Part shown: positions 35,511 to 63,799 of the stretch, piece by piece
Numbering within the stretch: the stretch's first letter is position 1
How the letters are laid out: every line of letters starts with the position of its first letter
Source: a virus
Virus record (IMG/VR): IMGVR_UViG_3300036770_007547
Span: 158,776-222,775 of that record
Reading direction: 5' to 3' (one strand)
DNA length: 64,000 nt
Notes under the pieces: generated by a model
The model's database searches: none
The model's input: only the letters and a program-made list of their open reading frames with translations
Told to the model about the DNA's origin: nothing
Program-made: the position numbers and the translations under genes

Positions 35511-36840
35511 CATCGAGTATCGCCAACAAATCCTGGACAATATATCCGCCAGCTTTTGTGCAGCCAAATGGTACAACGCCACGATATGGTTGGGATCGGG
35601 CCAGACCACGTCGTGCCATCACCCGCCCGCTCATGCCATAGACATCACAGCCATCCATGACAATCCCAAGGCCTTACATAACACGTCCGCTAAAAAACAA
35701 GACCGCGCTGACATGCAGGCTGGTCGTAGACCCGCTGGTTGCGAGTATTGCTGGAAGATCGAAGACATGGGCAGAGACGCTGTGTCGGATCGTGTATACA
35801 AGAGCCGCATATACCCGATCCAGGCTATATATGATGCAAGCGAGATGGATCCGAATGTGGACGTCGATCTCCGCACGCTGGAGATTGCCTTTGACCGCAC
35901 TTGTCAGCTGGCTTGTTCTTACTGTAATCCTGCTTTTAGCTCTACCTGGGTTAAAGACATCCGGACTCATGGACCATATCTGGCCCTGGAATCTGATGGT
36001 CGAAACCATTTTACTCACGCTCATGATCATGCCCAGTTGTATCGCTTCGGTGAGGATAATCCATATATCAGCGCGTTTTTTCGGTGGTGGGAAACGGACC
36101 TCCACCGCACCTTGGACGAGCTGCGCATCACTGGTGGCGAACCGCTCATGTCGGGATATACATGGCAATTGCTGGAATGGTTCAAGGCGAATCAGGGTCG
36201 TTCCAAGACGCGTCTAGCCATCAACTCAAATCTCAGCATCACACGTCAGCGTCTCCGGGAATTCATTGAAGCCACGCAGTACATAGAAAATCTCGATGTT
36301 TACACCAGCAACGAAAGTGTTGGCGGCCAGGCCGAGTACATACGTGACGGACTTGACTATGATCTCTGGATGCACAATGTACAAGAACTCCTGGAACATC
36401 AACACATCCGCGCAGTACACAGCATGTGTACCATCAATGCACTTTGCTTGGACAGTCTGCCGGAATATCTGGACCAACTGATACAGCTGAAAAAACACTA
36501 CGGACGAGATCGAGTCAATTTCACTCTCAACATACTGAGATTTCCCAGCTTCCAATCACCGTTGGTGTTGCCCGATGACTTGCGAACATGCTATCGTGAT
36601 CGTTTGGTCCAGTTCATGGTCAAACACAAAGGATGTTCGTATCTGCACGAACACGAATGGCGGCATCTGCAACGACTGGTAGACTATCTAGACGTGGTCA
36701 AAACTCCGCACGCTGGCGCACGTGAACGATCGGTGTTGCAAAATGATTTCGCCAAGTTTTATCAACAGTATGATCAGCGACGCGGCAAATGCTTTGTCGA
36801 AACTTTTCCGGGAATGGCCCAATGGTACAGTCAACTATAG
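35503..36840 (+). CDS. Radical SAM enzyme with N-terminal Cys-rich domain (array member 3)
   Basis: 445 residues. C134-x3-C138-x2-C141 (CQLACSYC), then NPAFSSTW and a GGEPLMSG motif, as in array member 2. The N-terminal Cys set (C19, C38, C80, C83, with CEYCWKIEDMG) and ALHNTSAKK match that protein, showing a recent paralogous pair. The first overlap is 8 bp with the GT-like gene. The last is 19 bp with the next radical SAM. Differences lie mainly in the C-terminal substrate region. Confidence 0.85.
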   Translation: MNDIEYRQQILDNISASFCAAKWYNATIWLGSGQTTSCHHPPAHAIDITAIHDNPKALHNTSAKKQDRADMQAGRRPAGCEYCWKIEDMGRDAVSDRVYKSRIYPIQAIYDASEMDPNVDVDLRTLEIAFDRTCQLACSYCNPAFSSTWVKDIRTHGPYLALESDGRNHFTHAHDHAQLYRFGEDNPYISAFFRWWETDLHRTLDELRITGGEPLMSGYTWQLLEWFKANQGRSKTRLAINSNLSITRQRLREFIEATQYIENLDVYTSNESVGGQAEYIRDGLDYDLWMHNVQELLEHQHIRAVHSMCTINALCLDSLPEYLDQLIQLKKHYGRDRVNFTLNILRFPSFQSPLVLPDDLRTCYRDRLVQFMVKHKGCSYLHEHEWRHLQRLVDYLDVVKTPHAGARERSVLQNDFAKFYQQYDQRRGKCFVETFPGMAQWYSQL

Positions 36841-38528
36841 ATTTTTCACACATCGGGATTCTCCGAGATCGCGAGATATTGGCATCGATAAATCTCGACG
36901 AGTTTGAATATTCGGCCATGACATGGCCGGGTTGGATCGAACAAAAATTGCGCAGTCTCCATCGACCAGTTTTTGACGATCATCAGAGATTGGTGTTTTA
37001 TTATCACGAAGATTACTACACTGATCACAGTGTGGTAGGCAAAAAAATCAAGTGTCTACAGGAAAAGCTGAATCTAGTGGACATCTCGAATTTTTTCTGT
37101 GTGATCATCAGCAGCAATCCTGCACTGGATCAAGAGATCCAAGAGTTGAAACAGATCTCGACAGATCCAACGCCGTTGGGTCATGCCACTGTGGCTGGAT
37201 CTTACAATAGATCACAGCTGGAGTCCAAACGTCGTTACTCGTACTCCAGTCCCGAACCAGTTGGAGTCAGCCTGGACAGCCTCTCGCCCCGGCATCAATA
37301 TCTGCTGTCAGAGAGCCAGTATTTTTGCATGTATCCTTGGACGCATCTTCATGCTTGGCCCACCGGTGAAGTGTGGCCATGCTGCATGGCCGATTCCAAG
37401 CCGGGTCCCTTGGGCAATTCAAAGACCCAGGAGCTGAAGATGATCTGGAACGGCGATAAAATGAAACAACTGCGCCTCGACATGCTGAACGAAAAACCCA
37501 ACGATCTTTGTGTGCGCTGTTACGAAAAAGAACAGAGTGGATTTTTCAGCGGACGTCGCAGCGCCAACAAGCATCAGGGACACCACATCTCCAAGATAGA
37601 CAGCACCGGCATTGATGGGTCAGTGGAAGACTTCCAGATGGTGTATTGGGACATAAGATTCAGTAATCTTTGCAATCTCCGGTGTCGCACTTGTGGATAT
37701 ATCTTCAGCAGCCAATGGTGGAAAGATCAAAAGAAACTCATGGGCGAGTGGGGTGACAAATGGGCTCGGGAAACTCCGGTGTTGAACTATGCTGGACGGC
37801 ACGAAACTGACATGTGGGAACAGATGATGCCACATCTTGACTACGTAGAACAGATCTACTTTGCTGGCGGCGAACCCTTGCTCATGGAAGAACACTATCT
37901 CATATTAGACGAACTGGTCCGACGCGAGCGATTTGATGTGAGATTGATATACAACACCAATTTCACCGAAACCAGACTGAAAGATCGTTTGGTTTTCGAG
38001 TATTGGAAGAAATTTGATTCAGTGAGCGTGGGCGCCAGCCTTGATGCCATGGGCCCACGTGCAGAATACATCCGCAAAGGCACTGACTGGTACCAGATCG
38101 AATCCAATCGTGAAAAGATGTTGGAGATATGTCCCGACGTGGATTTCTATGTCAGTCCCACGCTCAGTATATTGAATGCATATCATATCTCAGAATTCCA
38201 TAGAGATTGGACCCAGCGTGGATTGATACAAGCGCAAGATCTCAATGTCAACATCTTGCAAGATCCCCTGCACTATCGAATCGATGTGGCCACACAGCCG
38301 ATGAAACTCGAACTCAGTGCCATGTGGAAAGATCACCTGGACTGGTTAGAACCACAGGACTCGCTCAAGCGAGCCACGAACGGATTCAAGAGTGCGATAT
38401 CTTTCTTGAACAACATCGATAACTCACACATGATTCCAGTGTTCTGGGCCAAGACCAACGAACTAGATGCCATACGCAACGAACGTTTGTTGGACCATGT
38501 TCCTGAATTGAAGGCATTACAAGCATGA
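36822..38528 (+). CDS. Radical SAM enzyme with extra N-terminal domain and twitch (array member 4)
   Basis: ATG at 36822 is preferred over one at 36789, since it starts 19 bp before the upstream stop. 568 residues, the longest of the array. Residues 1-~160 are an extra domain of unknown fold (FDDHQRLVFYYHEDYYTDHS). The twitch half-domain then gives FCMYPWTHLHAWPTGEVWPC with C169, C187, C188, C230 and C233, and LKMIWNGDKMKQLRL. C284-x3-C288-x2-C291 (CNLRCRTC), IFSSQW and AGGEPLLME follow. The SPASM-like order is reversed relative to ordinary SPASM enzymes. Confidence 0.86.
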   Translation: MVQSTIDFSHIGILRDREILASINLDEFEYSAMTWPGWIEQKLRSLHRPVFDDHQRLVFYYHEDYYTDHSVVGKKIKCLQEKLNLVDISNFFCVIISSNPALDQEIQELKQISTDPTPLGHATVAGSYNRSQLESKRRYSYSSPEPVGVSLDSLSPRHQYLLSESQYFCMYPWTHLHAWPTGEVWPCCMADSKPGPLGNSKTQELKMIWNGDKMKQLRLDMLNEKPNDLCVRCYEKEQSGFFSGRRSANKHQGHHISKIDSTGIDGSVEDFQMVYWDIRFSNLCNLRCRTCGYIFSSQWWKDQKKLMGEWGDKWARETPVLNYAGRHETDMWEQMMPHLDYVEQIYFAGGEPLLMEEHYLILDELVRRERFDVRLIYNTNFTETRLKDRLVFEYWKKFDSVSVGASLDAMGPRAEYIRKGTDWYQIESNREKMLEICPDVDFYVSPTLSILNAYHISEFHRDWTQRGLIQAQDLNVNILQDPLHYRIDVATQPMKLELSAMWKDHLDWLEPQDSLKRATNGFKSAISFLNNIDNSHMIPVFWAKTNELDAIRNERLLDHVPELKALQA

Positions 38529-39736
38529 TACCGCACGACAAATTTTGCGTGTTGCCCTGGATCAGTCTAGAGACTTCACCTGTGGGCACAGTGCGGCCTT
38601 GCTGTCTGGCCGAACACGAGATCGTGGATGATCTCGGCTGCAAATTCAATCTTGATCGCGCAAATCTCCATGAGATCCAACACAGCGCACACATGCGTCG
38701 ACTGCGACAACAGTTCCTGGACGGTGAGAAACCCACCACATGTCGCAAGTGCTGGAGCGAAGAAGACGCTGGTCGCACCAGCAAACGCATGCACACCTTG
38801 GATCGTCTCAAGCACATCGTCAAAGATGAAGAATGGACTGTGGATGCCCGGCCTTTGATGTTCCTTGATCTCAAGCTGGGCAACATCTGCAATCTCAAAT
38901 GCAGGATCTGCGGATCATGGAGCAGCTCTTCGTTTGCCACTGAAGAAATATCAAACATACCCGATCCGGCATTCCGCAAAAGCAGTGTCCACTATCAGAT
39001 GCTGAAGCAAGGCGCCTGGCCCCGAGAGAATCCCACATTCTGGGCGCAGATCGACGGATTACTAGATCAGATCCGCTACATCGAATTCACCGGCGGTGAA
39101 CCTTTCATGATCCAAGAACACTTTGACATGCTGCAAGGCATGGTGGATCGTGGCATCGCTCACAACGTAGAGATACACTACAATACCAATGGCACACAAT
39201 GGCCCGAGGGTGCCGAAGCGATATGGCAGCACTTCCGGACTGTGGAAATCGCATTCAGCATCGACGATCTTGATCAACGATTCGAATATCAAAGAACCAA
39301 TGCAGCGTGGACCGAAGTCGTGGCCAATCTAAGTCGTTTCCGCGAGCTGCGGTCACGGCACCGGAACATACAGTTACAGGTGTGTAGCACAGTCAACATC
39401 TTCAATGTATGGCACCTCGAAGGCCTGGCCGAATGGATCGACCAGCAGGATTTCGATTTCATTTACTGGAACATGTTACACGAAGCCCGACATTTCAGTA
39501 TATCAGCTCTGCCGCCCGGAGCCAAGATGTTGGCAGCCCAGAGATTGGACACAGCCACAGTCAGCGATTTCCATCGCAGAGAATTTGATTTGATCCGGGA
39601 TTTCATGATGGCCGGAGAAAGCATGCCCGTGGAAACCATCCGCGAACAGATCCGGAGACTGGATCAGCGACGCGACCAGGACTTGAGATCCACGATCTGG
39701 GAATTGGCCGAGGCCCTGGACTATGACCCGACCTGA
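38525..39736 (+). CDS. Radical SAM enzyme with N-terminal twitch (array member 5)
   Basis: 403 residues, ATGA overlap with the previous gene. The twitch region KFCVLPWISLETSPVGTVRP has C8, C26, C27, C73 and C76 (CRKCW). The SAM-cluster motif is C122-x3-C126-x2-C129 (CNLKCRIC), followed by FTGGEPFMIQ. Later core strands include VEIHYNTNGTQWPEGAEAIW and VEIAFSIDDLDQRFEYQRTN. The protein is compact and lacks the N-terminal extension of array member 4. The start of the next gene overlaps its end by 14 bp. Confidence 0.87.
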   Translation: MIPHDKFCVLPWISLETSPVGTVRPCCLAEHEIVDDLGCKFNLDRANLHEIQHSAHMRRLRQQFLDGEKPTTCRKCWSEEDAGRTSKRMHTLDRLKHIVKDEEWTVDARPLMFLDLKLGNICNLKCRICGSWSSSSFATEEISNIPDPAFRKSSVHYQMLKQGAWPRENPTFWAQIDGLLDQIRYIEFTGGEPFMIQEHFDMLQGMVDRGIAHNVEIHYNTNGTQWPEGAEAIWQHFRTVEIAFSIDDLDQRFEYQRTNAAWTEVVANLSRFRELRSRHRNIQLQVCSTVNIFNVWHLEGLAEWIDQQDFDFIYWNMLHEARHFSISALPPGAKMLAAQRLDTATVSDFHRREFDLIRDFMMAGESMPVETIREQIRRLDQRRDQDLRSTIWELAEALDYDPT

Positions 39737-41018
39737 CTCTTTTTGTATGGCACCGTGGACTCACACTTATGTGAGCCCACAGACTGAGCGCAGGATGTGC
39801 TGTGCCAGCCGCGAGCCTGCGCAGAATTTCCAGCAGTACATAGACACAGCCGCAGGCACAGGCCAGTACATCCCCATCACCCTAGACGAACACTGGAACA
39901 GCGATCACATGCGCAGCGTGCGTCGCAGGATGATGGCCGGGGACACCTTGCCTGAATGCGAAGTATGCAACAATCAACTGCTCAACACCGCGGTCTATCG
40001 CGACTATTTCAATCAGCTGTTTGGTCACAAGTATGCGGAGGCCATAGCCAGAACAGACACAGACGGACGCACCGACATGCAGCCCGTGAGCTGGGATTAT
40101 AGATTTTCAAATCTCTGCAATTTCAAATGTAGGATGTGTGGCGACATGCTGAGTTCGAGCTGGGAAACCGAACAGCGCCAGCATGACATGATCGATTGGA
40201 GCAATCCCAAGAACGCTTGGATGCAACCCCACACACGCCAGGAAATAAGTAAGTTCCAAGACACTGTGATCGAGCGCGAGTTCGCTGCGGCAGTGGAACA
40301 ACATCGTGTGGAAGAAGTGTATTGGGTGGGTGGAGAACCGCTCATGTACGAGCAACACTGGCGCTACATGCAACGCATCATTGAACTGGGAGACGGTCCA
40401 CGTGTCTATGCTAGGTATAATACTAATCTTAGTCGTTGCCATTATCGCGGCGTGGATCTTTTTCGCGACATCCTCGATCATTTACGAGATTACCAGATCT
40501 GCGCCAGCCTTGACGGAACTGGAGCCACAGGAGAATACATCCGAACCGGACTGCGCTACGACCAATGGCTTGAAAACTTCCAACGAGGTGTGGACCACCG
40601 AAGACACAGCCGCCAATTTAGACTCGACTTCACGCTCACCCTACCCGGTTTATACGAAGTCGGAAATATACAGGAATTGGCAGACACACACCAAGTAGAA
40701 GTTTTGGCCAAAGTGGTATTCAGTTTCACTCCCGACATCGTCATGAGTCCGCTGTGCTTGCCAAGGTCGTTGCTGGAGCCGAGACTGCGGAGTCTCATGT
40801 CACAAACACACGGGGCCATGCGAGATGTGCTCGAACAATTGATAAAACGTCCCACGTTCCAGGAATCTTGGCCTGACACCTGGCAAATGGGTCTTGCTAA
40901 AGGCAAGGCTCGTGTGTTAAAATTAGAGTCCATACGCAACGACAGTTATACCATGGCCGATATTTTACGCAAGGATCCCGAAGTCCATGAATGGTGGCAA
41001 CAAATCCCAACGCATTGA
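39723..41018 (+). CDS. Radical SAM enzyme with N-terminal twitch (array member 6)
   Basis: 431 residues. Twitch: SFCMAPWTHTYVSPQTERRM with C8, C26, C27, C79 and C82. The core motif is C132-x3-C136-x2-C139 (CNFKCRMC), with SSSWETE, then WVGGEPLMYEQHW and ICASLDGTGATGEYIRTGLR, a common radical SAM strand. It overlaps the previous gene by 14 bp and the next by 32 bp. It is the last in the tandem array. Whether the six enzymes act on one substrate in turn or on different ones cannot be told. Confidence 0.87.
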   Translation: MTRPDSFCMAPWTHTYVSPQTERRMCCASREPAQNFQQYIDTAAGTGQYIPITLDEHWNSDHMRSVRRRMMAGDTLPECEVCNNQLLNTAVYRDYFNQLFGHKYAEAIARTDTDGRTDMQPVSWDYRFSNLCNFKCRMCGDMLSSSWETEQRQHDMIDWSNPKNAWMQPHTRQEISKFQDTVIEREFAAAVEQHRVEEVYWVGGEPLMYEQHWRYMQRIIELGDGPRVYARYNTNLSRCHYRGVDLFRDILDHLRDYQICASLDGTGATGEYIRTGLRYDQWLENFQRGVDHRRHSRQFRLDFTLTLPGLYEVGNIQELADTHQVEVLAKVVFSFTPDIVMSPLCLPRSLLEPRLRSLMSQTHGAMRDVLEQLIKRPTFQESWPDTWQMGLAKGKARVLKLESIRNDSYTMADILRKDPEVHEWWQQIPTH

Positions 41019-42060
41019 AATCGATCTCACAGATCATCACGAACACATCATCACTCTCTACATCGATGTGGGAGACACCAGTCTCGGTCACAAATGGTTG
41101 TGCGCCCTAGAGCATTTGATCAGCGGTGAGTATCACCTAGAGAAAAACTACTGTTTCTTGGGATTTCCCGATGGTGCACGCGATGGCAACTACATCCTAG
41201 ATCAAGTCAATCACAGCATACAAGCCATCAACACCGCTGATTTGGGATATCGCATACAGGATCGGTTTGACATGGCCACCATGTTTGAACACCAACCAAG
41301 ACCACGCACCATGCGCCAGGAGCGCATGAATGACTTGCATAGATACTTTGAAGAATTACAGGGCGTGAGTGGTTCCATGAGTGTGTACTATCAAAGGGCC
41401 GATGCTGCCACGCGGTGGCACATCAGACAACTCAATCTCTTGTGTCACGAGTTCGAATCATGGGCATTGAGCTGGCGCAAACAGCTGGAAGCACCAGACT
41501 GGATCCGCCCCAGCCAGCTCATGTGTTGGTTGGGGGCTCCGAGATTCAAGCTCGAACCCCAAGACTTTGAACTGTTTGGGGTCGACACCATAAGTCGCCG
41601 CCTGGGCGGTGTGTATGTGGGTGTGAACAAAGCAGTTGGAAAGCATCACTGGGAAGTGTTCCACGACGAGGGCCGTGACAGCAGGATCGGTGAGTTGACC
41701 ACCACAGTGTTGAAGGGACAGACCGAGGCCGCCGGGGACTTTGACATCGAATGGGGCCGCTATGCCGGGGACCAACCTTGGCAACTGGCCGAGCTGGAGG
41801 CTTTCCGTGATTGGCTGAGAGACAACGGGTTTGATCCCGAAGACAAAAGTCTCACTATCGGTCATCCCTGTGTGGCGCAAGTGGATCTCCAGCGCAGCTT
41901 TGGTTCAGAACATTATCGCGACATTTGGCAGCAATTAAATACGCATCTAAACGTGGCAGAGATACGAACTCCAAATGCAAGAACCACGTACCAGTATCGT
42001 TGGAGCGACACTGGATATGCTCAAAAACAAATTGATGTGATCAGCAAGGAAATGTCATGA
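40987..42060 (+). CDS. Conserved phage protein of unknown function (357 aa)
   Basis: Overlaps the end of the last tandem radical SAM gene by 32 bp and the next small gene by 4 bp. The sequence is soluble and Trp/His-rich: IEIDLTDHHEHIITLYIDVG near the N-terminus, a HRYFEELQGVSGSMSVYYQR helix region, a middle block FELFGVDTISRRLGGVYVGV, and WGRYAGDQPWQLAELEAFRD. I know similar proteins only as hypothetical cyanophage proteins. The tight overlaps suggest a partner of the radical SAM enzymes, such as a carrier or substrate-presenting protein. That is a guess from position. Confidence 0.65.
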   Translation: MNGGNKSQRIEIDLTDHHEHIITLYIDVGDTSLGHKWLCALEHLISGEYHLEKNYCFLGFPDGARDGNYILDQVNHSIQAINTADLGYRIQDRFDMATMFEHQPRPRTMRQERMNDLHRYFEELQGVSGSMSVYYQRADAATRWHIRQLNLLCHEFESWALSWRKQLEAPDWIRPSQLMCWLGAPRFKLEPQDFELFGVDTISRRLGGVYVGVNKAVGKHHWEVFHDEGRDSRIGELTTTVLKGQTEAAGDFDIEWGRYAGDQPWQLAELEAFRDWLRDNGFDPEDKSLTIGHPCVAQVDLQRSFGSEHYRDIWQQLNTHLNVAEIRTPNARTTYQYRWSDTGYAQKQIDVISKEMS

Positions 42061-42158
42061 CATGGTTGAAACGATTGATCGGATGGATCAAACTAGAAAT
42101 ACGTTATCGCAGGAAACTGCGCGAGTTACGCAAACGCGACCCTTTCATTTATAAATGA
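42057..42158 (+). CDS. Small basic 33-residue peptide
   Basis: This frame is too short for most ORF callers. It begins ATGACATGG in an ATGA overlap with the previous gene and ends in an ATGA overlap with the carbamoyltransferase gene. Both junctions are exact, which strongly supports a real gene. The peptide (MTWLKRLIGWIKLEIRYRRK, LRELRKRDPFIYK) has net charge about +9 and an amphipathic helix. Short Arg/Lys-rich peptides with a conserved DPFIYK-like end occur in related phages, as I recall. Possible roles include RNA or membrane binding, or a modification substrate for the neighbouring radical SAM enzymes. All are speculative. Confidence 0.72.
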   Translation: MTWLKRLIGWIKLEIRYRRKLRELRKRDPFIYK

Positions 42159-43642
42159 ACATACTAGGAATCAGTGCGGGTTTCCATGACGGTTCAGTGA
42201 GCCTGGTGTCCCCGAACGGCGACATATTGTTTGCTGCCCACAGCGAAAGATACAGCCGTGTCAAAAACGATGATGGTATATCACCAGACATGCTGGCCGA
42301 AATCGACGGTACACAAATTGGCACACTGGCCTTTTACGAACGACCTTGGATGCATGGTTTGCAGCGAGCAGTGAGTGGGCAGACTCCTTTGCCACCCTTG
42401 AGCCTATCAGGCACGTTGTCCCAACATCTCAATGGCTGGTATCTGAAAAATGCCGTGGAAGATCGTAGATGCTTCTCGCATCATCTCAGTCATGCCGCTG
42501 CGGGTTTCCAGACATCACCGTTTGATGACGCCACTGTGGTGGTGATAGATGCCATTGGAGAACTTGACACTGTTTCCATCTATCGTGCCTGTTACGATGA
42601 CCAGGGCCAGGCACAGTATCAACGACTGTGGCGGCAAAGGTATCCACACAGCATTGGATTATTCTACAGTGCCGTGACCAAAGCCGTGGGACTCAAGCCC
42701 ATGGAAGAAGAATATATAACCATGGGCATGGCTGCTTATGGCAGCGATCTCGGTGCCGCCTGGATGCGCGAGCATCTCGTCGAGGATCTACAACAAGTGA
42801 GATTCCACAAGAATCTGCACATTGGATTCGATGAATACGAGTTGCCATTCACCCACAACGAAGATATCGCGGCTTCGGCCCAGGCCCTGACCGAGCAGTT
42901 GATCATGTCAGTGATGCGACGTGCTCGCGATCTCACCGGTGGTGGCAATCTCGTTTACATGGGTGGTGTGGCCTTGAATTGCCTGGCCAATCGTTTGTTG
43001 GGAGACTATTTTGATGACATTTGGATCATGCCCAATCCCGGAGATGCTGGATCGAGTCTTGGTGCAGCCGCTCTTGCTTATGGTCAGCGCCTGCGCTGGC
43101 GTGACCCTTATCTTGGTCACACTATCACTGGCGATTATCCTGTTCGTGCCCTACTCGATGATCTTGCTGACGGGGGTATTGCTGCTGTGGCTAGCGGACC
43201 AGCTGAGTTTGGTCCTCGTGCCCTAGGCAACCGTAGTCTATTAGCAGATCCTCGCGGAGAGGATATCAAGGATAGAGTCAATGAAATTAAGCGACGTCAA
43301 AAATTTAGACCCTTTGCCCCGGTCATACTGGCCGAGATGGTCAATGACTACTTTGATATGCCACCTGTTTGGCACCGCAGCGATTACATGCAAGTGGTCG
43401 CCCGGTGCCGTCGCCCTGATCTTTTTCCTGCTATATGTCATGTTGATGGCACCAGCCGAGTACAGACAGTTCCAAAGAATTCGCGATCGGGCATCCGCCA
43501 ACTCCTAGAACAATGGTATGCCCAGACCGGCTGTCCCATGTTATTGAACACCAGTCTCAATGTGCGCGGGGAACCCATGATCAACACTCGAGACGATGCT
43601 GATAGATTCACTAGATTTTACGGCGTGCCCGTGAGATCATAG
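42155..43642 (+). CDS. Carbamoyltransferase, NodU/TobZ/CmcH family
   Basis: 495 residues, a little shorter than the ~570 of typical NodU/TobZ proteins. N-terminal YrdC/Kae1-like features are AHSERYSRVKND, HHLSHAAAGFQTSPFDDATV, YITMGMAAYGSD and YMGGVALNCLANR. C-terminal features include SGPAEFGPRALGNRSLLADP and NTSLNVRGEPM. These proteins carry out carbamoyl-phosphate-dependent O-carbamoylation, usually of sugars. In an operon of glycosyltransferase-like and radical SAM genes it probably carbamoylates a glycan or nucleotide sugar. The start forms an ATGA junction with the basic peptide gene, and its end overlaps the convergent amidinotransferase by 6 bp. Confidence 0.86.
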   Translation: MNILGISAGFHDGSVSLVSPNGDILFAAHSERYSRVKNDDGISPDMLAEIDGTQIGTLAFYERPWMHGLQRAVSGQTPLPPLSLSGTLSQHLNGWYLKNAVEDRRCFSHHLSHAAAGFQTSPFDDATVVVIDAIGELDTVSIYRACYDDQGQAQYQRLWRQRYPHSIGLFYSAVTKAVGLKPMEEEYITMGMAAYGSDLGAAWMREHLVEDLQQVRFHKNLHIGFDEYELPFTHNEDIAASAQALTEQLIMSVMRRARDLTGGGNLVYMGGVALNCLANRLLGDYFDDIWIMPNPGDAGSSLGAAALAYGQRLRWRDPYLGHTITGDYPVRALLDDLADGGIAAVASGPAEFGPRALGNRSLLADPRGEDIKDRVNEIKRRQKFRPFAPVILAEMVNDYFDMPPVWHRSDYMQVVARCRRPDLFPAICHVDGTSRVQTVPKNSRSGIRQLLEQWYAQTGCPMLLNTSLNVRGEPMINTRDDADRFTRFYGVPVRS

Positions 43643-56000: not shown

Positions 56001-56234
56001 ATGATTTCGGCCAAACAACATCTCAAAGACAGCAACATGACCTACTGGTATCACTTCCGTCACAGCATGGCCAATGGTGGAAGATTGCTGTGGCTGGCCA
56101 TCAGCAGTTTCGTGCATGCTGTGTTTCCGCAGATAGCGCCACAACATGCCGCTCGCGGCATCATCCGCATCTACAATCGCATGCGTGAATACCGCCACCT
56201 CAGGCGATTGATGAAGTCAGTAGACTCGACTTGA
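56001..56234 (+). CDS. DUF6356-like small protein (77 aa)
   Basis: The pattern QHLKDSNMTYWYHFRHSMAN, GGRLLWLAISSFVHAVFPQI, then IIRIYNRM matches the DUF6356 family of proteobacteria and marine phages, as I recall it: Y-x-x-H, a hydrophobic helix, then HA-x-x-P. The LLWLAISSFVHAVF segment is a likely membrane or membrane-associated helix. Function unknown. It is plus-strand, convergent with the acyltransferase gene (18-bp overlap). Confidence 0.78.
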   Translation: MISAKQHLKDSNMTYWYHFRHSMANGGRLLWLAISSFVHAVFPQIAPQHAARGIIRIYNRMREYRHLRRLMKSVDST

Positions 56235-56906
56235 TGTGCCGGGCCGGGCTCGTGAGTTTTCGGGCAAATCTTCAAACACCGTGACGCTGGGTGCAATCAC
56301 TGTTCCGTTGCCAATCTTCATGTGTCGACCGTCTTGATGTCGATTGACGATGGTGCTTTTGACTCCCACAAAGCAATCTTCCCCCACTTCGCATCCGCCA
56401 GTCACGCAGGCACCGATTTGTATCAATGATCGAGATCCCACCACGACGTCGTGGCTGATGTAGGCCTGATCCTTGACTGTGACATGATCATGTATCACAG
56501 CACCGTGATTGATCTGGGCTCGTGATCCTATGATGACGTTGTGTCCCAATCGCGCTCGTGGACTGATCTGTGCCGAAGGATGTGCCACAGTGGCACCCAC
56601 CAATCTATGGTCCTGCATGATGCCTATCAGTCCCAGTCGTTTGTTGCGTGTGCGTCGACTTATCGGATGCTGCCCCGGTACCCAGGTGGTACCCACTAGG
56701 TATTCACAATCGGCTCTTTCATCCAGGGCTTCGTCGAGCGTGATATCTTCTAGACCCAAGTCATTGGGGATACCATCGGGATCGTACACACCTCTTATGG
56801 GACGTTGTGTGGCCGATACAAGTTCTACTAGATGTGGAAGGCTGGCGGCCCATCCCAAGATCACGATGGGTCGGCGATTGTAGGTCAAGTCAAGTGTGAA
56901 TCTCAT
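56217..56906 (-). CDS. NeuD/PglD-like sugar O/N-acyltransferase (left-handed beta-helix)
   Basis: 229 residues. The N-terminal ~90 residues form a Rossmann-like domain (RPIVILGWAASLPHLVELVS). The remainder is hexapeptide repeats (I-x-P-x-A-x-L-G pattern: ISPRARLGHNVIIGSRAQIN, HDVVVGSRSLIQIGACVTGG). NeuD/PglD proteins acylate amino groups or hydroxyls of nucleotide amino sugars using acyl-CoA, with a His in the HGAVIHDHVT region. It could finish the product of the epimerase and aminotransferase at 49.6 and 48.5 kb. The ATG follows an ATAAATA motif by 6 nt, with no Shine-Dalgarno. Confidence 0.85.
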   Translation of the reverse strand: MRFTLDLTYNRRPIVILGWAASLPHLVELVSATQRPIRGVYDPDGIPNDLGLEDITLDEALDERADCEYLVGTTWVPGQHPISRRTRNKRLGLIGIMQDHRLVGATVAHPSAQISPRARLGHNVIIGSRAQINHGAVIHDHVTVKDQAYISHDVVVGSRSLIQIGACVTGGCEVGEDCFVGVKSTIVNRHQDGRHMKIGNGTVIAPSVTVFEDLPENSRARPGTSSRVY

Positions 56907-56912
56907 GTTGGA

Positions 56913-56919
56913 TATTTAT
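56913..56919 (-). promoter_or_regulatory. Late promoter of the acyltransferase gene
   Basis: ATAAATA on the minus strand in the short gap between the tmRNA terminator and the ATG at 56906. The predicted transcript start is at or 1 nt before the ATG. Confidence 0.6.
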
Positions 56920-56940
56920 TGGTTGATGACATGGTCATGA

Positions 56941-56965
56941 AAAAGCCCGCCGAAGCGGGCTTTTG
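56941..56965 (-). terminator. Rho-independent terminator of tmRNA
   Basis: A 10-bp stem (AAAAGCCCGC / GCGGGCTTTT) with a TTCG tetraloop on the minus strand, followed by a T-run. The symmetric flanks mean it may work in both directions. Confidence 0.9.
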
Positions 56966-57265
56966 GTGGGTTTGATAACAAGGCCTGTCCTGCCCCGTCT
57001 AGCCTTAGGCGGCTAGAGCAAACACCTCATCGTTGGCATTTGTAGGTTTCGCTTCTACGGCCGGGAAATCCCAACCCTAAGGGCTTCTGCCTTGCCCCGC
57101 TGTCCACTCTGCTACTCCTTGCACTGTCGAAACTATTTCGGGCCCATCAGAAGCATACTAGCAACACCGACCATAAAGGTTCTCTTTACGATGTTTACAG
57201 TCTAATATGCTTCTGGTGGACCCGGCCGGTACCGCCCCGGCGTCCAGAACACATTTTGCATCGCT
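56966..57265 (-). ncRNA. ssrA: Permuted two-piece tmRNA
   Basis: On the minus strand the acceptor piece comes first. It has a T-arm GCCGG/CCGGC with loop GGCGGTA and ends CGGGTCC-ACCA (A at 57215). After a spacer, the coding piece begins GGGCCCG (57146-57140). GGGCCCG pairs with CGGGTCC as the acceptor stem. The spacer ends GAAGCATATTAG / CTAGTATGCTTC are complementary, extending the precursor stem. CAGAGT in the coding piece can pair with GTTCTG in the acceptor piece (helix P2). The tag reads AKPTNANDEVFALAA from resume codon GCG (57053) to TAA (57008-57006), with the stop in the loop of the CTAGCC/GGCTAG hairpin. Ends are approximate. tmRNA rescues stalled ribosomes with SmpB. Permuted ssrA genes are known from alphaproteobacteria, some betaproteobacteria and cyanobacteria. 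Confidence 0.9.
57006..57053 (-). other. tmRNA tag reading frame (proteolysis tag)
   Basis: Fifteen codons plus TAA in the coding piece encode AKPTNANDEVFALAA. The last residues ALAA and the core ANDE-x-FALAA are like proteobacterial tags recognised by ClpXP and related proteases. The first Ala codon GCG follows TAGAA, like the TAGTC found before the resume codon in many tmRNAs. Confidence 0.88.
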
Positions 57266-57283
57266 TCATACAGCGATAATACT

Positions 57284-57290
57284 ATTTACT
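57284..57290 (-). promoter_or_regulatory. Candidate late promoter of tmRNA
   Basis: GTAAATA on the minus strand overlaps the pstS stop codon, with a predicted start near 57278. A 6-bp hairpin (ATCGCT/AGCGAT, 57261-57278) follows, just before the acceptor piece. tmRNA may also be read from the pstS transcript. Confidence 0.4.
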
Positions 57291-58293
57291 TGATCTGTGA
57301 CCAAACTTTTTGACGAATATCATCCTGCAGTTTTGTGGGAAGATGCACATAGTCGAGTTCAGCACTCAGCTTGGCACCGTTCTTGAAAGCCCAATCAAAG
57401 AACTTGATGACTTCTTGGCTTTCTTTCTTGTTCACAGGTTCTTTGTACATAAGGATGAAGCTGGCAGTGGTGATGGGCCATGAGTCTTTGCCGGGTTGAT
57501 TGACAATGCTGAGTCCCATACCAGGAACTGAGAACCAATCGGCACCTGCTGCGGCCGCTGCGAATGTAGCATCATCAGGCCGGACGAACTTGCCATCTTT
57601 GTTCTGAAGTTGGAAGTAAGGGATGCTGTTCTTCTTAGCATAGGCATATTCTACATAACCGATGCTACCTTTGATACGACCAACATTTGCTGCCACGCCT
57701 TCATTGCCCTTACCGCCAACAGACGACGCTGCGGGCCACTTGACAGCAGCACCTTTGCCTACCTTTTCAGCCCAGAGCTTTGAAGCTTCGGTGAGGTAAT
57801 CGGTAAAGTTGAAGGTTGTGCCTGAACCGTCTGCACGATGGACTACTGTGATATTGAGATCGGGCAGTTTCTTGCCAGGGTTCAGTGCAGCGATCTTGGG
57901 ATCGTTCCAGTTAACGATCCAGCCCATGAACATCTCTGCCAGCACTTCGCCAGTTACTTTGAGTTCACCCTGCTTAAAACCATCAAGGTTGAACACGGGC
58001 ACAGTGCCGCCAATGATCGCGGGGAACTGCACCATGCCATCCTTGTCTAAGTCTACACCTTTGACGGGTGCATCGCTGGCACCAAATGTAACTGTCTTGG
58101 CACGGATCTGACGCAGGCCGCCACTTGAACCAATACTCTGATAGTTGAGGCTGACACCGGTTTCTTTCTTGTAGGCTTCAGCCCACTTGGCGTATACAGG
58201 ATAGGGAAATGTTGCGCCTGCACCTGTGATAGTCTGTGCTTGCGCTGATACAACAAATAGTGCCGCCAGCATGGAAATTACAAATTGTTTCAC
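57286..58293 (-). CDS. pstS: Phosphate ABC transporter periplasmic binding protein PstS
   Basis: GTG at 58293 is chosen: an AAGGAG Shine-Dalgarno lies 6 nt upstream and it yields a signal peptide VKQFVISMLAALFVVSAQAQ, cleaved about residue 19-20. 335 residues. The mature protein begins TITGAGATFPYPVYAKWAEA, the PstS fingerprint, with SIGSSGGLRQIRAKTVTFGA (phosphate-binding SGG) and SIGYVEYAYA. PstS catches phosphate in the periplasm for the host PstCAB transporter. No transporter subunits are seen here, so the phage protein would feed the host system. A Pho-box-like repeat lies upstream. Confidence 0.93.
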   Translation of the reverse strand: MKQFVISMLAALFVVSAQAQTITGAGATFPYPVYAKWAEAYKKETGVSLNYQSIGSSGGLRQIRAKTVTFGASDAPVKGVDLDKDGMVQFPAIIGGTVPVFNLDGFKQGELKVTGEVLAEMFMGWIVNWNDPKIAALNPGKKLPDLNITVVHRADGSGTTFNFTDYLTEASKLWAEKVGKGAAVKWPAASSVGGKGNEGVAANVGRIKGSIGYVEYAYAKKNSIPYFQLQNKDGKFVRPDDATFAAAAAGADWFSVPGMGLSIVNQPGKDSWPITTASFILMYKEPVNKKESQEVIKFFDWAFKNGAKLSAELDYVHLPTKLQDDIRQKVWSQIK

Positions 58294-58328
58294 TGTGGTC
58301 TCCTTGTGAGTGTGATAGTGATTGTGTG

Positions 58329-58378
58329 CTTTATACACCAACCTATTTAATTACGTTGATATTACAATCTTGTTACAA
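58329..58378 (-). promoter_or_regulatory. Pho-box-like direct repeats and promoter of pstS
   Basis: Three heptamers on the minus strand, TTGTAAC (58378-58372), TTGTAAT (58367-58361) and ACGTAAT (58356-58350), are spaced exactly 11 nt, the period of PhoB binding boxes. TATAAA (58335-58330) follows 14 nt later as a -10 candidate, and TTAAATA (58350-58344) is a possible late element. Suggests control of pstS by host PhoB under phosphate starvation. Confidence 0.7.
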
Positions 58379-59377: not shown

Positions 59378-60114
59378 CACTGGATGCCCAGTCTGGAAAG
59401 ATATTCCAGGATCTGATCCACTATCAAGGCTTTGCCGGTGGCATCGGGATGATATCCATTTTCGGTGTTGTATCCGGATTTTGTGGCAAAATCATGCAGT
59501 CCCGGACCCGGGGTCAATTCCAACATGCGGTCTTCGCGACCTTGCAGCAATTTCTGGAATCTCGTGTCATCGAGGTCGTGGTGTTCGGTGAGCATGAACG
59601 CATAAACATAGCCGCGATTTTCTAGATAGTTGAACAAAAAGTCCAGTGCCGAATATCCAAGTCCGGGCACAATGTCCAGCCCCACTTGCCGTTCTATGGC
59701 TCGGTGCTGGCGACTTTCACGATGTAGGTATGTGTGTGCGCACAGATCATGGTTCCAGGGCACCCTGGGACTCGCGGCTGGATTGTCAAATTCGCAGGGC
59801 ACATCCAGTCGCATGGCGATGCTGATGTTGAACATTATCAGAGTGTTGTGCCTGGGATACTGGTAACGCTCCAGCACCGATCTCAAGGATTCGGCGATCA
59901 AGATGTTGCCGTGACTGGCTGCAGCCATGTTCACCAAACTCTGCACATGCAACCGTTGCGCCAACATTCCGGCCCAACTGGCCGGCTGAGACACCGATCC
60001 CTGCCCTTGATCGATGAACGAACATCCGCCCATGCTGTTGCTCGTGGGTGGACACCCGCCCACACCATCTTGTGTAAAGCTGTTGCCTCCGATCAAGAGA
60101 TTTTCGATGCGCAT
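59374..60114 (-). CDS. SGNH/GDSL-like hydrolase
   Basis: ATG at 60114 is chosen since MRIENLLIGGNSFTQDGVGG places the G-x-N/D-S block (Ser 12) at the N-terminus. An in-frame start at 60201 would run into the divergent desaturase gene. 246 residues. The C-terminal block NGYHPDATGKALIVDQILEY puts His 222 where the SGNH catalytic His is expected, but with N-G-x-H instead of D-x-x-H. Likely a secreted or cytoplasmic esterase or acyl-hydrolase; substrate unknown. It is divergent from the desaturase by 28 bp, which hints at lipid modification. Confidence 0.7.
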   Translation of the reverse strand: MRIENLLIGGNSFTQDGVGGCPPTSNSMGGCSFIDQGQGSVSQPASWAGMLAQRLHVQSLVNMAAASHGNILIAESLRSVLERYQYPRHNTLIMFNISIAMRLDVPCEFDNPAASPRVPWNHDLCAHTYLHRESRQHRAIERQVGLDIVPGLGYSALDFLFNYLENRGYVYAFMLTEHHDLDDTRFQKLLQGREDRMLELTPGPGLHDFATKSGYNTENGYHPDATGKALIVDQILEYLSRLGIQC

Positions 60115-60131
60115 GCGATTAGTTATCGCAG

Positions 60132-60138
60132 ATAAATA
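60132..60138 (+). promoter_or_regulatory. Late promoter of the desaturase gene
   Basis: ATAAATA on the plus strand ends 4 nt before the ATG at 60143. No Shine-Dalgarno. The predicted transcript start falls on or next to the start codon. Confidence 0.6.
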
Positions 60139-60142
60139 CTTG

Positions 60143-60868
60143 ATGCTTGAATTGCTGGTGGTACTCGTGAGTACCCATATAACAATAGCATCAGTCACCA
60201 TCTATCTGCATCGTTGCCAAGCCCATAGATCAGTAGAATTGCATCCCATCGTGAGCCATTTCATGCGATTCTGGCTGTGGCTCACGACTGGCATGGTGAC
60301 CCGAGAGTGGGTGGCCATACATCGCAAACATCATCAGGCCTGCGAAACCGCGCAAGATCCACACAGCCCACAAGTGCATGGCATCCTCAAGGTGCTGTTT
60401 GCTGGTGCTTGGTTGTATGCCGACGCTACCAAAAATCGCCGGATGATCGAGCAGTACGGACGAGGCACACCCGACGACTGGATCGAGCGCAATGTCTACA
60501 GCCGGCACAGCAGCCTCGGCTTCCTGTTGCTGTTGATCGTGGAAGTGGCCCTGTTCCACGGTTGGGGTCTGGTAATGTGGCTGGTTCAGATGTTCTGGAT
60601 TCCGTTCTGGGCCGCAGGTGTCATCAACGGATTGGGACACTGGTGGGGCTATCGCAACACTGACACCCGAGATTGCAGTCGCAACATCTTTCCCTGGGGC
60701 ATCATTGTGGGCGGCGAGGAATTACACAACAATCATCACGATGCACCGGCATCGGCTCGACTCAGTCAGAAATGGTGGGAGTTTGACATCGGCTATTTGT
60801 ACATACAGATCTTGAGCCGTGCCGGACTGGCACGGATACGTGTGATAGATCAACCCGTGGTGCCGTAA
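60143..60868 (+). CDS. Fatty acid (acyl-lipid/acyl-CoA) desaturase
   Basis: ATG at 60143 is chosen: the preceding frame is antisense to the SGNH gene, and the ATAAATA motif is just upstream. 241 residues. Three His boxes: H23RCQAH28 (HX4H), HRKHH at 60-64 (HxxHH), and HNNHH near the end (LHNNHHDAP). These bind the di-iron centre of membrane desaturases. Hydrophobic helices at about 1-20, 30-55, 130-165. It introduces double bonds in membrane acyl chains. Desaturase genes occur in some T4-like phages. It would modify host lipid during infection. Confidence 0.9.
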   Translation: MLELLVVLVSTHITIASVTIYLHRCQAHRSVELHPIVSHFMRFWLWLTTGMVTREWVAIHRKHHQACETAQDPHSPQVHGILKVLFAGAWLYADATKNRRMIEQYGRGTPDDWIERNVYSRHSSLGFLLLLIVEVALFHGWGLVMWLVQMFWIPFWAAGVINGLGHWWGYRNTDTRDCSRNIFPWGIIVGGEELHNNHHDAPASARLSQKWWEFDIGYLYIQILSRAGLARIRVIDQPVVP

Positions 60869-61368: not shown

Positions 61369-61449
61369 TGGTGCCCCTGCTCGGATTCGAACCGAGAACT
61401 TCACCACTCCTTTTGAGAGAGCTGCCTTTACCAATTTGGCCACAGGGGC
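61369..61449 (-). tRNA. tRNA-Leu(CAA)
   Basis: Acceptor GCCCCTG/CAGGGGC with encoded ACCA. Loop CTCAAAA gives anticodon CAA (codon UUG). T-arm CTCGG-TTCGAAT-CCGAG. The variable region is short for tRNA-Leu (~9 nt), but the 3-bp D stem (GCC/GGC) is class-like. Between the RNase H-like gene and the radical SAM gene. Confidence 0.85.
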
Positions 61450-61458
61450 GGGAATCAA

Positions 61459-61465
61459 TTAAATA
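61459..61465 (+). promoter_or_regulatory. Candidate late promoter of the stand-alone radical SAM gene
   Basis: TTAAATA on the plus strand ends 5 nt before the ATG at 61471. No Shine-Dalgarno. The predicted start falls on the start codon. Confidence 0.5.
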
Positions 61466-61470
61466 TTTCC

Positions 61471-62358
61471 ATGAACAAGCTAACGATGGATCGCACCATG
61501 GTAGATGTGTACATCACCAACGTGTGCAATCTTACCTGTGAGGACTGCCGGAGTTTCAACAACTACCGGTTCAAAGGACACATCCAGTACGATCATGCCG
61601 TGCACCAGGCCTGGGCCTCGCGCTTGGATATTCCTGATTTTGGTGTGCTGGGTGGGGAACCCTGTCTCCATCCCGATCTATTTGATTGGTTACATGGACT
61701 GCGTGAATGCTGGCCGCGATCTCGGGGACTATTGATCACCAACGGTACACACATGTCCCGGGTCAAGAATCTCCATGAAACCTTGGCCGAGCTTGATTAC
61801 GAAGTTCAGATATCTATACACAGTCCTCGCATGCGGGGATTCGTGGCCGATCAGATTCTCCAAACTTTCGGCATCTGTGAAGTGGTACCGCCACGCATCG
61901 ACGACGACTGGAAACACAACACAAATTTTTATCTCATGTCTAGCCTAGGTGTCAAACTAGAGATACAGAACACCTGGAACTTTCAAACATCACCATTTGC
62001 TGGTCCGGGATTCCAGTTGCATCGCAGCGACCCATATCGAGCTCATGCCAATTGCAACATAAAACACTGCACGCATTTTATTGCAGGGAAATTTTACAAA
62101 TGTGCCGTGGTGGGCTTGATGCCTGAATTTTTGAAACAACAAGGAAAACCCGTGCCAGAAATCCTGGAATCCTACCAGCCGTTGACATTGGAAAATCTCA
62201 GTCAGGCCAAGCTGGATGAGCTGCTTGATCCCATACCACAATGCCAGGTTTGTCCGGAAAACTATACCAAACAACACATCATGGCCGATTTCAAACAACC
62301 ACAGATACTAAAACGCTACGAAAAGTATCAACCGTCGCTTTCCTGCCAGCAACCATGA
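61471..62358 (+). CDS. Radical SAM enzyme (stand-alone, C-terminal Cys domain)
   Basis: 295 residues. C19-x3-C23-x2-C26 (CNLTCEDC) near the N-terminus and LGGEPCLHPDL (GGEP 61-64). Unlike the six array enzymes, its Cys-rich part is at the C-terminus: NCNIKHCTHFIAGKFYKCAV and QCQVCPENY, like SPASM/twitch domains in the usual order. It probably binds one extra Fe-S cluster. Substrate unknown. It stands apart from the array and may act on a different target. Its end overlaps the convergent gene by 31 bp. Confidence 0.85.
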   Translation: MNKLTMDRTMVDVYITNVCNLTCEDCRSFNNYRFKGHIQYDHAVHQAWASRLDIPDFGVLGGEPCLHPDLFDWLHGLRECWPRSRGLLITNGTHMSRVKNLHETLAELDYEVQISIHSPRMRGFVADQILQTFGICEVVPPRIDDDWKHNTNFYLMSSLGVKLEIQNTWNFQTSPFAGPGFQLHRSDPYRAHANCNIKHCTHFIAGKFYKCAVVGLMPEFLKQQGKPVPEILESYQPLTLENLSQAKLDELLDPIPQCQVCPENYTKQHIMADFKQPQILKRYEKYQPSLSCQQP

Positions 62359-62789
62359 GGGAATGATTCTATCATCCATGAAGCTAAAGGTGTAACAAAT
62401 TTGAATCGCAATTCACCATCCCACCCTATGTCTCGACTGGGAAATGCTGTGTCTACTGGACCAAACCCATTGTTGTCATGATGGAATCGAGCACGATAGC
62501 GTATCAATGGCCATATGTTGATGTCGTTGAATTTCAGCTCTTCGATGTGATATGACTGATTCACGACTAGATCTGCTGCCTCGGGGCTTGGTTGATCATC
62601 TATGTGAAGGCGTTTACCGCTGAGCGCCAACGCGAAGTCGTGTGTTTGGCGTTGGTCGCTGTGTTCCCAATCCACCACATGCAATTGATGTGTCACAGGC
62701 GAACTCAAAATCTCGACACCGTTGATGTTCAGACAAAATTTGCTGGGAATACAGGTCTTGAACTTTATGCTGATTTTGATTTTATTCAC
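62328..62789 (-). CDS. Hypothetical phage protein (153 aa)
   Basis: GTG at 62789, 4 nt after an ATAAATA motif, with no Shine-Dalgarno. The N-terminus KIKISIKFKTCIPSKFCLNI resembles a T4-like cyanophage protein of unknown function as I recall it. The middle includes IEELKFNDINIWPLIRYRAR. Beta-rich and soluble. Convergent with the radical SAM gene (31-bp overlap). Confidence 0.65.
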   Translation of the reverse strand: MNKIKISIKFKTCIPSKFCLNINGVEILSSPVTHQLHVVDWEHSDQRQTHDFALALSGKRLHIDDQPSPEAADLVVNQSYHIEELKFNDINIWPLIRYRARFHHDNNGFGPVDTAFPSRDIGWDGELRFKFVTPLASWMIESFPHGCWQESDG

Positions 62790-62793
62790 GCGA

Positions 62794-62800
62794 TATTTAT
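62794..62800 (-). promoter_or_regulatory. Late promoter of the 153-residue gene
   Basis: ATAAATA on the minus strand ends 4 nt before the GTG at 62789. The flanking TT at the 5' side makes it close to the consensus TATAAATA. Confidence 0.6.
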
Positions 62801-62883
62801 AAAGTCATGTGCTACACAGGTTGGAACTTACAGAAGAAATCGTCGAGTGACCCATCGGTGCAGGACAGGTATCGACGATATCG

Positions 62884-62957
62884 TGGTCTCGGTGGGAGGA
62901 ATCGAACCTCCGCCACATGCTCCCAAAGCACGCATGATACCATTTCACCACACCGAG
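62884..62957 (-). tRNA. tRNA-Pro(UGG)
   Basis: Acceptor CTCGGTG/CACCGAG with encoded ACCA. Loop TTTGGGA gives anticodon TGG (codon CCA), with G37 typical of Pro. T-arm GGAGG-TTCGATT-CCTCC. Confidence 0.95.
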
Positions 62958-62959
62958 TC

Positions 62960-63012
62960 TCGGGGCCGGGGATCGAAGATTTGAGCTTCGGGCTCACTTG
63001 GCAAATCCCCAA
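62960..63012 (-). pseudogene. tRNA remnant, probably Gln type, lacking an anticodon arm
   Basis: Minus strand 5' end TTGGGGATTTGCCAAG resembles the first part of tRNA-Gln (TGGGG-x-x-x-x-GCCAAG). After a short stretch it ends with TCTTCGATCCCCGGCCCCGA, like a T-loop and acceptor end. The anticodon arm is missing and there is no CCA. It looks like a deleted tRNA gene. Confidence 0.45.
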
Positions 63013-63016
63013 TGAT

Positions 63017-63105
63017 TGGAGGAGGGATGGTAGAATCGAACTCCAACCGCTCTCGCAGTCCATCTGTTTTCAAGACAGTGCTGGGCCCAGCCCAGATAAC
63101 CCTCC
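63017..63105 (-). tRNA. tRNA-Ser(UGA), slightly degenerate
   Basis: 89 nt, class II. Acceptor GGAGGG/CCCTCC and encoded CCA. Loop CTTGAAA gives anticodon TGA (codon UCA). Variable arm ACTGC-GAGA-GCGGT. The T-stem TGGAG pairs with CTACCA only with a bulged A, and the seventh acceptor pair is T-T. Either a true phage variant or a sequence error. Confidence 0.7.
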
Positions 63106-63217
63106 AGTGATTGACCGGTTACCGGATCCGGTTCGGGCTTTTGGTCCCCGAGGCTCGTAAACTCACCCACCCTTGATGTCGTGCCTGCGCAGAGGACCGG
63201 CCGGGCATCGCCGTGTG
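63106..63217 (-). other. 112-bp gap without an assigned gene
   Basis: Between tRNA-Ser and tRNA-Thr. GC-rich, with inverted elements (CCGGATCCGG, GGTTACC), but no T-loop and no convincing coding frame. Probably tRNA precursor spacer. Confidence 0.4.
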
Positions 63218-63292
63218 TGGTGCTGATGAGAGGAATCGAACCTCCGACTTACGCCTTACCAAGGCGTTACTCTACCCCTGAGTTACATCAGC
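63218..63292 (-). tRNA. tRNA-Thr(GGU)
   Basis: Acceptor GCTGATG/CATCAGC with encoded ACCA. Loop TTGGTAA gives anticodon GGT (codons ACU/ACC). T-arm GGAGG-TTCGATT-CCTCT. Confidence 0.95.
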
Positions 63293-63401
63293 TGGGATCA
63301 GTCGCACCAGGTCTCATAGGCATTGACCAACATCACGCATTCTAGGACTTCGCCGGTGACGATCAGTGCCAAAGCAGACAAGGCCAGTGCTGCAAGATAT
63401 A

Positions 63402-63479
63402 TGGTGGCAGTGGAGGGATTCGAGCCCCCGATCTTCCGCGTATGAAGCGGCTGCATTGGACCAGCTATGCTACACTGCC
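63402..63479 (-). tRNA. tRNA with CAT anticodon (elongator Met or Ile2)
   Basis: Acceptor GGCAGTG/CACTGCC with encoded ACCA. Loop TTCATAC gives anticodon CAT. The paired G1-C72 excludes an initiator tRNA. If the C34 is modified by TilS it reads AUA as Ile; the sequence alone does not decide. Confidence 0.9.
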
Positions 63480-63558
63480 TGGATTGATTTGTGTTCATCA
63501 TGTATTATATGACACTAGCATGGAAATGTGTTTGCACTTTCATACATGAGCTTATTAC

Positions 63559-63633
63559 TGGCCCGACCGGCAGGAATCGAACCCGCATCGTACGCTTTAG
63601 AAGAGCGTTGCCTTTCCGTTAGACTACGGTCGG
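63559..63633 (-). tRNA. tRNA-Arg(UCU)
   Basis: Acceptor CCGACCG/CGGTCGG with encoded GCCA. Loop CTTCTAA gives anticodon TCT (codon AGA, rare in many proteobacteria). T-arm GCGGG-TTCGATT-CCTGC. Confidence 0.95.
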
Positions 63634-63642
63634 TAATTGTAT

Positions 63643-63717
63643 TGGTGGGTGCGGGGAGTTTCGAAATCCCGACTCTCTGGTTAAAAGCCAGATACTCTTC
63701 CTCTGAGTTACGCACCC
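63643..63717 (-). tRNA. tRNA-Lys(UUU)
   Basis: Acceptor GGGTGCG/CGCACCC with encoded ACCA. Loop CTTTTAA gives anticodon TTT (AAA). One mismatch is present in the T-stem (T53-C61). Confidence 0.9.
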
Positions 63718-63723
63718 CGGATT

Positions 63724-63799
63724 TGGTAGCCACAGCTGGGTTCGAACCAGCGACCACCGCGTTATCAACACGGTGCTCTACCTGCTGAGCTATGTGGCT
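63724..63799 (-). tRNA. tRNA-Ile(GAU)
   Basis: Acceptor AGCCACA/TGTGGCT with encoded ACCA. Loop TTGATAA gives anticodon GAT (codons AUU/AUC). T-arm GCTGG-TTCGAAC-CCAGC. Confidence 0.95.

Follow-up and report, generated by a model that had tools for sequence, protein, structure and literature searches.

Two-piece forms of tmRNA, the RNA that frees stuck ribosomes and marks unfinished proteins for degradation, have been described in phages before: a survey of 18,146 phage genomes counted 53 of them, 50 of the 53 being marine or aquatic (PMC9004378). In phage Melnitz and the pelagimyophages, a permuted two-piece tmRNA is encoded by a phage without an integrase; the Melnitz tmRNA groups with those of alphaproteobacteria, is linked to a glutamine riboswitch, and is reported to belong to a lineage other than that of the host (PMC9004378). 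Clp genes are known in jumbo phages (PMC7824862, PMC6102473), and a single phage, the Sinorhizobium jumbo phage AP-J-162, is reported to have a tmRNA together with ClpX and other Clp genes (PMC11242549).

The tmRNA gene analysed here lies in a 64,000-nt window, the whole stretch of DNA under study, which is the end (positions 158776-222775) of a 222,775-base IMG/VR virus record. It resembles the Melnitz gene in being phage-encoded, permuted and two-piece, in a phage without integrase, and in an apparent difference of lineage from the host; unlike that gene, it has a beta-like body, adjoins a pstS gene, and is accompanied by no riboswitch match in an Rfam cmscan of the whole window. With betaproteobacterial permuted tmRNAs (RF01850, the best subfamily model) it shares gene order and tag style (AND...ALAA), but its T-loop is GGCGGTA and its D-loop carries AG, where the sampled beta forms have TTCRANY and GG. 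The combination of GGCGGTA with AAATAG is instead that of alphaproteobacterial permuted tmRNAs (RF01849), from which the gene differs in that their model is not the best match, the tag is not of the ANDN type, and TTTCGAC replaces the usual GATCGAC. The likeness to AP-J-162 is in the joint presence of tmRNA and Clp genes; the phage and its host are different. What is new here is the mosaic elbow, the probable mismatch with the host's tmRNA form, and the fact that the phage with this tmRNA also encodes ClpX, a ClpS-like protein and two proteins of ClpP type; the two-piece phage tmRNA itself was known.

Anatomy and setting of the tmRNA gene

An Rfam cmscan of the whole window matched RF04321 (tmRNA_permuted) at 57275-57005 on the minus strand, with 123.5 bits (cutoff 47; E 1.2e-23), and RF01850 (beta_tmRNA) at 57328-56938(-), with 116.1 bits (cutoff 84; E 1.2e-34). 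The latter was the best model of its clan, ahead of alpha_tmRNA (RF01849) as subfamily model. ARAGORN reported a permuted tmRNA at 56914-57306(-) with the tag ANDEVFALAA. A reading made earlier from the sequence only had proposed a phage-encoded permuted two-piece tmRNA, with a host from a lineage such as some beta- or alphaproteobacteria, and had named the lack of a covariance score as grounds for dropping the idea; all three calls are positive, the score is strong, and the best Rfam subfamily is of beta type. The minus strand of the window, at about 57306-56914, is thus confirmed to carry a complete and real permuted two-piece tmRNA gene, extending past both ends of the interval 56966-57265 originally assigned to it.

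All parts of the gene lie on the minus strand. The acceptor (3') half (57217..57275; ARAGORN, Rfam and direct reading), which comprises the T-arm, the acceptor 3' strand and the discriminator A, precedes the coding half. By direct reading, CGGGTCC, the 3' strand of the acceptor stem, is followed by A73 and by a CCA end that the gene itself encodes (57224-57214, the CCA at 57214..57216), all upstream of the acceptor 5' strand GGGCCCG (57139..57145), where the coding half begins; the two strands form seven of seven pairs, including G3.U70. The T-arm, GCCGG-GGCGGTA-CCGGC (57225..57241; direct reading and loop comparison), has all five pairs of its stem (GCCGG/CCGGC), and loop comparison located the D-loop region, AAATAG-TTTCGAC, at 57126..57138, with A where beta tmRNAs carry G. 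Between the halves lies a 68-nt intervening spacer (57146..57213) predicted to form a long hairpin with its ends paired (folding z -3.93), whose removal would be expected during maturation. The tag frame identified by ARAGORN, GCC...TAA (57037-57005), has the conserved GCN-AAC-GAY start and a stop, and encodes ANDEVFALAA; the 15-residue tag AKPTNANDEVFALAA proposed earlier begins too early. The stop codon occupies the loop of a hairpin, CTAGCC/GGCTAG (56999..57016; direct reading and folding), and an intrinsic terminator follows downstream of the gene (56938..56964; folding z -5.57). The remaining anatomy of the sequence-only reading (acceptor half before coding half, seven-base acceptor stem, stop-codon hairpin, spacer) holds on direct reading.

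A sigma-70-like site is present at 57303-57276(-), the number of such sites being no better than chance. The T4 late promoter type, TATAAATA, is matched at only six of eight positions in the window, at a similar place upstream of the tmRNA, and no T4 late promoter is claimed there. An exact copy (8/8) stands 45-47 nt ahead of the T-stem in three other phage tmRNA loci (L034, L050 and L086).

The record encodes a Gp23 major capsid protein (PF07068, 333.6 bits) as well as tail sheath, RecA-like, AAA recombination and ribonucleotide reductase proteins. Judging from its T4-type capsid, sheath and recombination genes, the source virus is a large T4-like phage of bacteria. Among annotated relatives, its capsid protein is closest to those of PA5oct, Phosso and similar large T4-like phages (about 66% identity); blastn at word size 11 detected no similar DNA in annotated phage records. 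Directly upstream of the tmRNA, on the same strand, is a gene for a pstS-like phosphate-binding protein (57286..58341), the best bacterial relatives of which are from Burkholderiales, and in many related phage contigs the distance between tmRNA and pstS is about 3 kb or less. A hexapeptide transferase gene (56217..56906, minus strand) lies downstream, past the terminator. Elsewhere, the window contains a 4986-codon open frame (10413-25373, plus strand), probably for a giant structural protein, and radical SAM-like genes, a Nol-like carbamoyltransferase gene and a fatty acid desaturase-like gene (36789-43642 and 60014-60868, both plus strand); genes resembling those for a sodium:solute symporter and an MFS transporter are found further up the record (G000:C1:76181-77554 and 80298-81557).

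Occurrence among phages and predicted function

Searches with the pstS protein and with a 15-base pattern from the tag region yielded about 60 loci with an ARAGORN tmRNA, nearly all of them permuted and many tagged ANDEVFALAA. Of 46 viral records, picked mostly for having tmRNA calls, 34 scored above the cutoff of the beta_tmRNA model, and 15 of 34 further records above that of RF04321. Given the published cases and about 50 more IMG/VR loci, two-piece phage tmRNAs form a class already known, and their rarity had been overstated in the sequence-only reading. That reading had also held that a lack of complementary acceptor ends in related genomes would count against it. Such ends were found: nine distinct phage acceptor stems are each fully paired (63 of 63 pairs, against a mean of 49.8 and a maximum of 61 with shuffled partners), as read by a parser that favours paired stems, since it accepted only sequences with GGG, U70 and six or more pairs in the acceptor. 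Position 3:70 is G.U in all 71 distinct phage and bacterial sequences, which is a consistency check rather than an independent test, G3 and U70 having been required by the parser.

Some of the loci depart from the common form. The spacer measures 121-226 nt in L154, L178 and L393 and contains a 37-61-codon open frame, possibly a nested small gene. Longer, divergent tags, among them ANDDYFYQDLKLAA, ANDAFFGGELRLVA and ANDAYFGEERLAA, occur in L126, L179, L189, L194 and L393, still with LAA or LVA at the end. For L159, L160, L188 and L190, ARAGORN gave a 28-residue tag lacking the LAA end and followed by two stops, which may be a misread frame. The acceptor end of the permuted tmRNA is ACCC or ACCT in L128 and L167, CCA seemingly not being fully encoded. 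Genes for tRNAs with a CTA anticodon (tRNA-Pyl in ARAGORN) are present in L141, L144 and L145 and could be amber suppressors in related phages.

The window gene is complete and has all the pairing and coding signatures; many related phages retain it, their copies showing compensatory changes. It is genuine and phage-borne and probably functional; the reading that we favour, and hold to be rather likely, is that this phage gene yields a working tmRNA of the permuted two-piece kind, predicted to be used with host SmpB. The RNA would be transcribed with pstS or alone, and its spacer would be cut out by tRNA-processing enzymes, leaving two pieces that remain paired. Host AlaRS would charge it via G3.U70, and host SmpB and ribosomes would use it, the record having no SmpB. 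Proteins on stalled ribosomes would then receive ANDEVFALAA; since this tag ends in LAA, which is recognised by ClpX, the products would pass to host ClpXP and possibly to phage ClpX-ClpP. The phage would benefit in that ribosomes are kept cycling and truncated proteins are cleared during infection.

A different role would be that of an interfering decoy, the phage tmRNA competing for SmpB, AlaRS or ribosomes and thereby blunting or redirecting host trans-translation. The tag-less tmRNA of phage DS6A is reported to inhibit endogenous tmRNA in E. coli (cited in PMC11915505), and the elbow loops of the window tmRNA are unlike those of the probable host. A decoy would need neither tag frame nor stop, however, and both are intact here, with LAA ends retained in most phage tmRNA copies, making this role improbable. 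A literature search found no test of phage tmRNA use beyond DS6A. The tmRNA might also be part of a translation kit, carried like phage tRNAs and replacing RNAs lost to host defences or shut-off. Seven tRNA genes (Leu, Pro, Thr, Met, Arg, Lys and Ile; 61369..63799, ARAGORN and Rfam) do occur on this strand at a distance of 4-7 kb upstream, and several related phages have large tRNA arrays, but many tmRNA-bearing phage contigs have few or no tRNAs nearby. We consider this explanation, too, unlikely; it overlaps with that of a functional tmRNA and does not exclude it. Although tmRNA genes are common attachment sites (PMC11915505, PMC9004378), a passenger, that is, a host tmRNA acquired at an integration site and now decaying, is very improbable for a full-length gene retained across many phages. 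Full pairing of the phage stems despite differences at several positions in both strands also speaks against a passenger, as does the one-piece form of the gene in the probable host family.

The tRNA-like elbow

The elbow of the window tmRNA combines the T-loop GGCGGTA with the D-loop AAATAG. Guanines in the T-loop have been noted before, one in the tmRNA of Caulobacter and two in that of Reclinomonas mitochondria (PMC1168896); a literature search found no description of an accompanying change in the D-loop partner. Among 50 parsed bacterial permuted tmRNAs, 39 had G55, all with AG in the D-loop, and the remaining 11 had U55, all with GG; standard tmRNA genes were U55/GG in 47 of 47 cases. The phage permuted copies, which are not all independent, paired G55 with AG in 29 of 30 and U55 with GG in 20 of 23, the deviants carrying extra bases. 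T-loop position 55 and D-loop position 18 therefore switch together across phages and bacteria. All 11 sampled U55 (beta) bacterial permuted genes have TTCRANY and GG, a pair absent from the window tmRNA, which has the G55-type T-loop and A18-type D-loop characteristic of alpha_tmRNA. GGCGGTA with AAATAG is in fact the commonest type among the sampled G55 bacterial genes. That the odd T-loop marks a decayed gene was considered and rejected, the loop being common among sampled bacterial permuted tmRNAs. We refer to G55 bacterial sequences as alpha-type; the label is ours, and the comparison with all Rfam subfamilies covers five of them, each of which matched alpha_tmRNA best.

Both the acceptor and the coding half of the window tmRNA find their best matches in other phages. 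The nearest acceptor half overall, from phage locus L392, is 88% identical and yet has the loop TTCGAAT. Against bacteria, the coding body is nearer to beta sequences (best 0.68, versus 0.59 for the G55 type) and the acceptor half to the G55 type (0.76, versus 0.71 for beta). Since the body is thus nearer to one lineage and the acceptor half to the other, the window tmRNA is a mosaic of a beta-like body and a T-loop/D-loop pair typical of alphaproteobacterial tmRNA. Recombination and stepwise compensation both fit this pattern. In the latter case, compensatory evolution within phage tmRNAs, rather than recombination with a gene from alphaproteobacteria, would have produced the G55/A18 elbow. 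We regard such an origin as a serious possibility, somewhat short of an even chance: intermediate loop types (TGCRAYT, TGCGAAT and GGCAGTN, nearly always with AG) exist among phages, but the window has exactly the combination most common among sampled G55 bacteria. The linked 55/18 switch would allow the working of the tRNA-like elbow in tmRNA to be tested cleanly through a tertiary contact.

Host form and protein partners

The best pstS relatives among GTDB genomes belong to Burkholderiales, many of them to Comamonadaceae (Hydrogenophaga, Limnohabitans, Acidovorax). From pstS alone, a transferable gene, the probable host family is Burkholderiaceae. None of 32 genomes taken from the list of pstS relatives passed the beta_tmRNA cutoff, and 27 of 28 loci examined from such genomes have a one-piece tmRNA, mostly with the tag ANDERFALAA (ARAGORN); in the order Burkholderiales as a whole, 10 of 250 genomes were above the cutoff. 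The permutation had been taken to point to a host from a lineage with permuted tmRNA. It is no guide to the host, since the Burkholderiales genomes related by pstS carry the one-piece form; if pstS does indicate the host, the phage would supply a tmRNA form that the host lacks. The exact DNA pattern for the ANDEVFA tag had no match in GTDB genomes, so that no host was found by tag.

A search for SmpB (PF01668) gave no match in the 222,775-base record, so a complete phage set for trans-translation and degradation is wanting in this component; SspB was not found in the record either. Outside the window, the record does encode ClpX (G000:C1:25506-26702; NF003745, 519.9 bits, cutoff 359), in which the GYVG loop is aligned and MGF replaces IGF, and ClpP (G000:C1:10202-10792; 305.5 bits, cutoff 249), with its active-site motifs aligned. 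A second ClpP-like protein (G000:C1:10811-11404; 97.0 bits, Pfam cutoff 20.2) and a ClpS-like protein (G000:C1:24158-24472; 83.7 bits, cutoff 23) are both below their NCBIfam cutoffs. An Hsp20-like protein is encoded within G000:C1:24158-24987 and forms with ClpX, the two ClpP-like proteins and the ClpS-like protein a phage proteostasis set. Phages with ClpX have ClpP in seven of seven cases and tmRNA in only three (G000, G034 and G707), and many tmRNA phages are without ClpX. Coupling of ClpX and ClpP to the tmRNA was therefore rejected: among related phages, the presence of the one does not follow that of the other. A joint pathway of the Clp proteins and the tmRNA is possible.

Such a pathway would be a semi-private tag-and-destroy branch, in which a mosaic tmRNA of foreign lineage would work around host SmpB and its tag would be read by phage ClpX-ClpP. 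We think this doubtful. Were it true, incomplete proteins would be tagged and degraded during infection by parts supplied by the phage, in a host with a one-piece tmRNA. Because the tmRNA of the probable host differs in structure, the two tags, ANDEVFALAA from the phage and ANDERFALAA from the host, could be distinguished by mass spectrometry. With genes for both ClpX and ClpP in the phage, the question can be put whether one virus provides a degradation tag as well as the protease that reads it.
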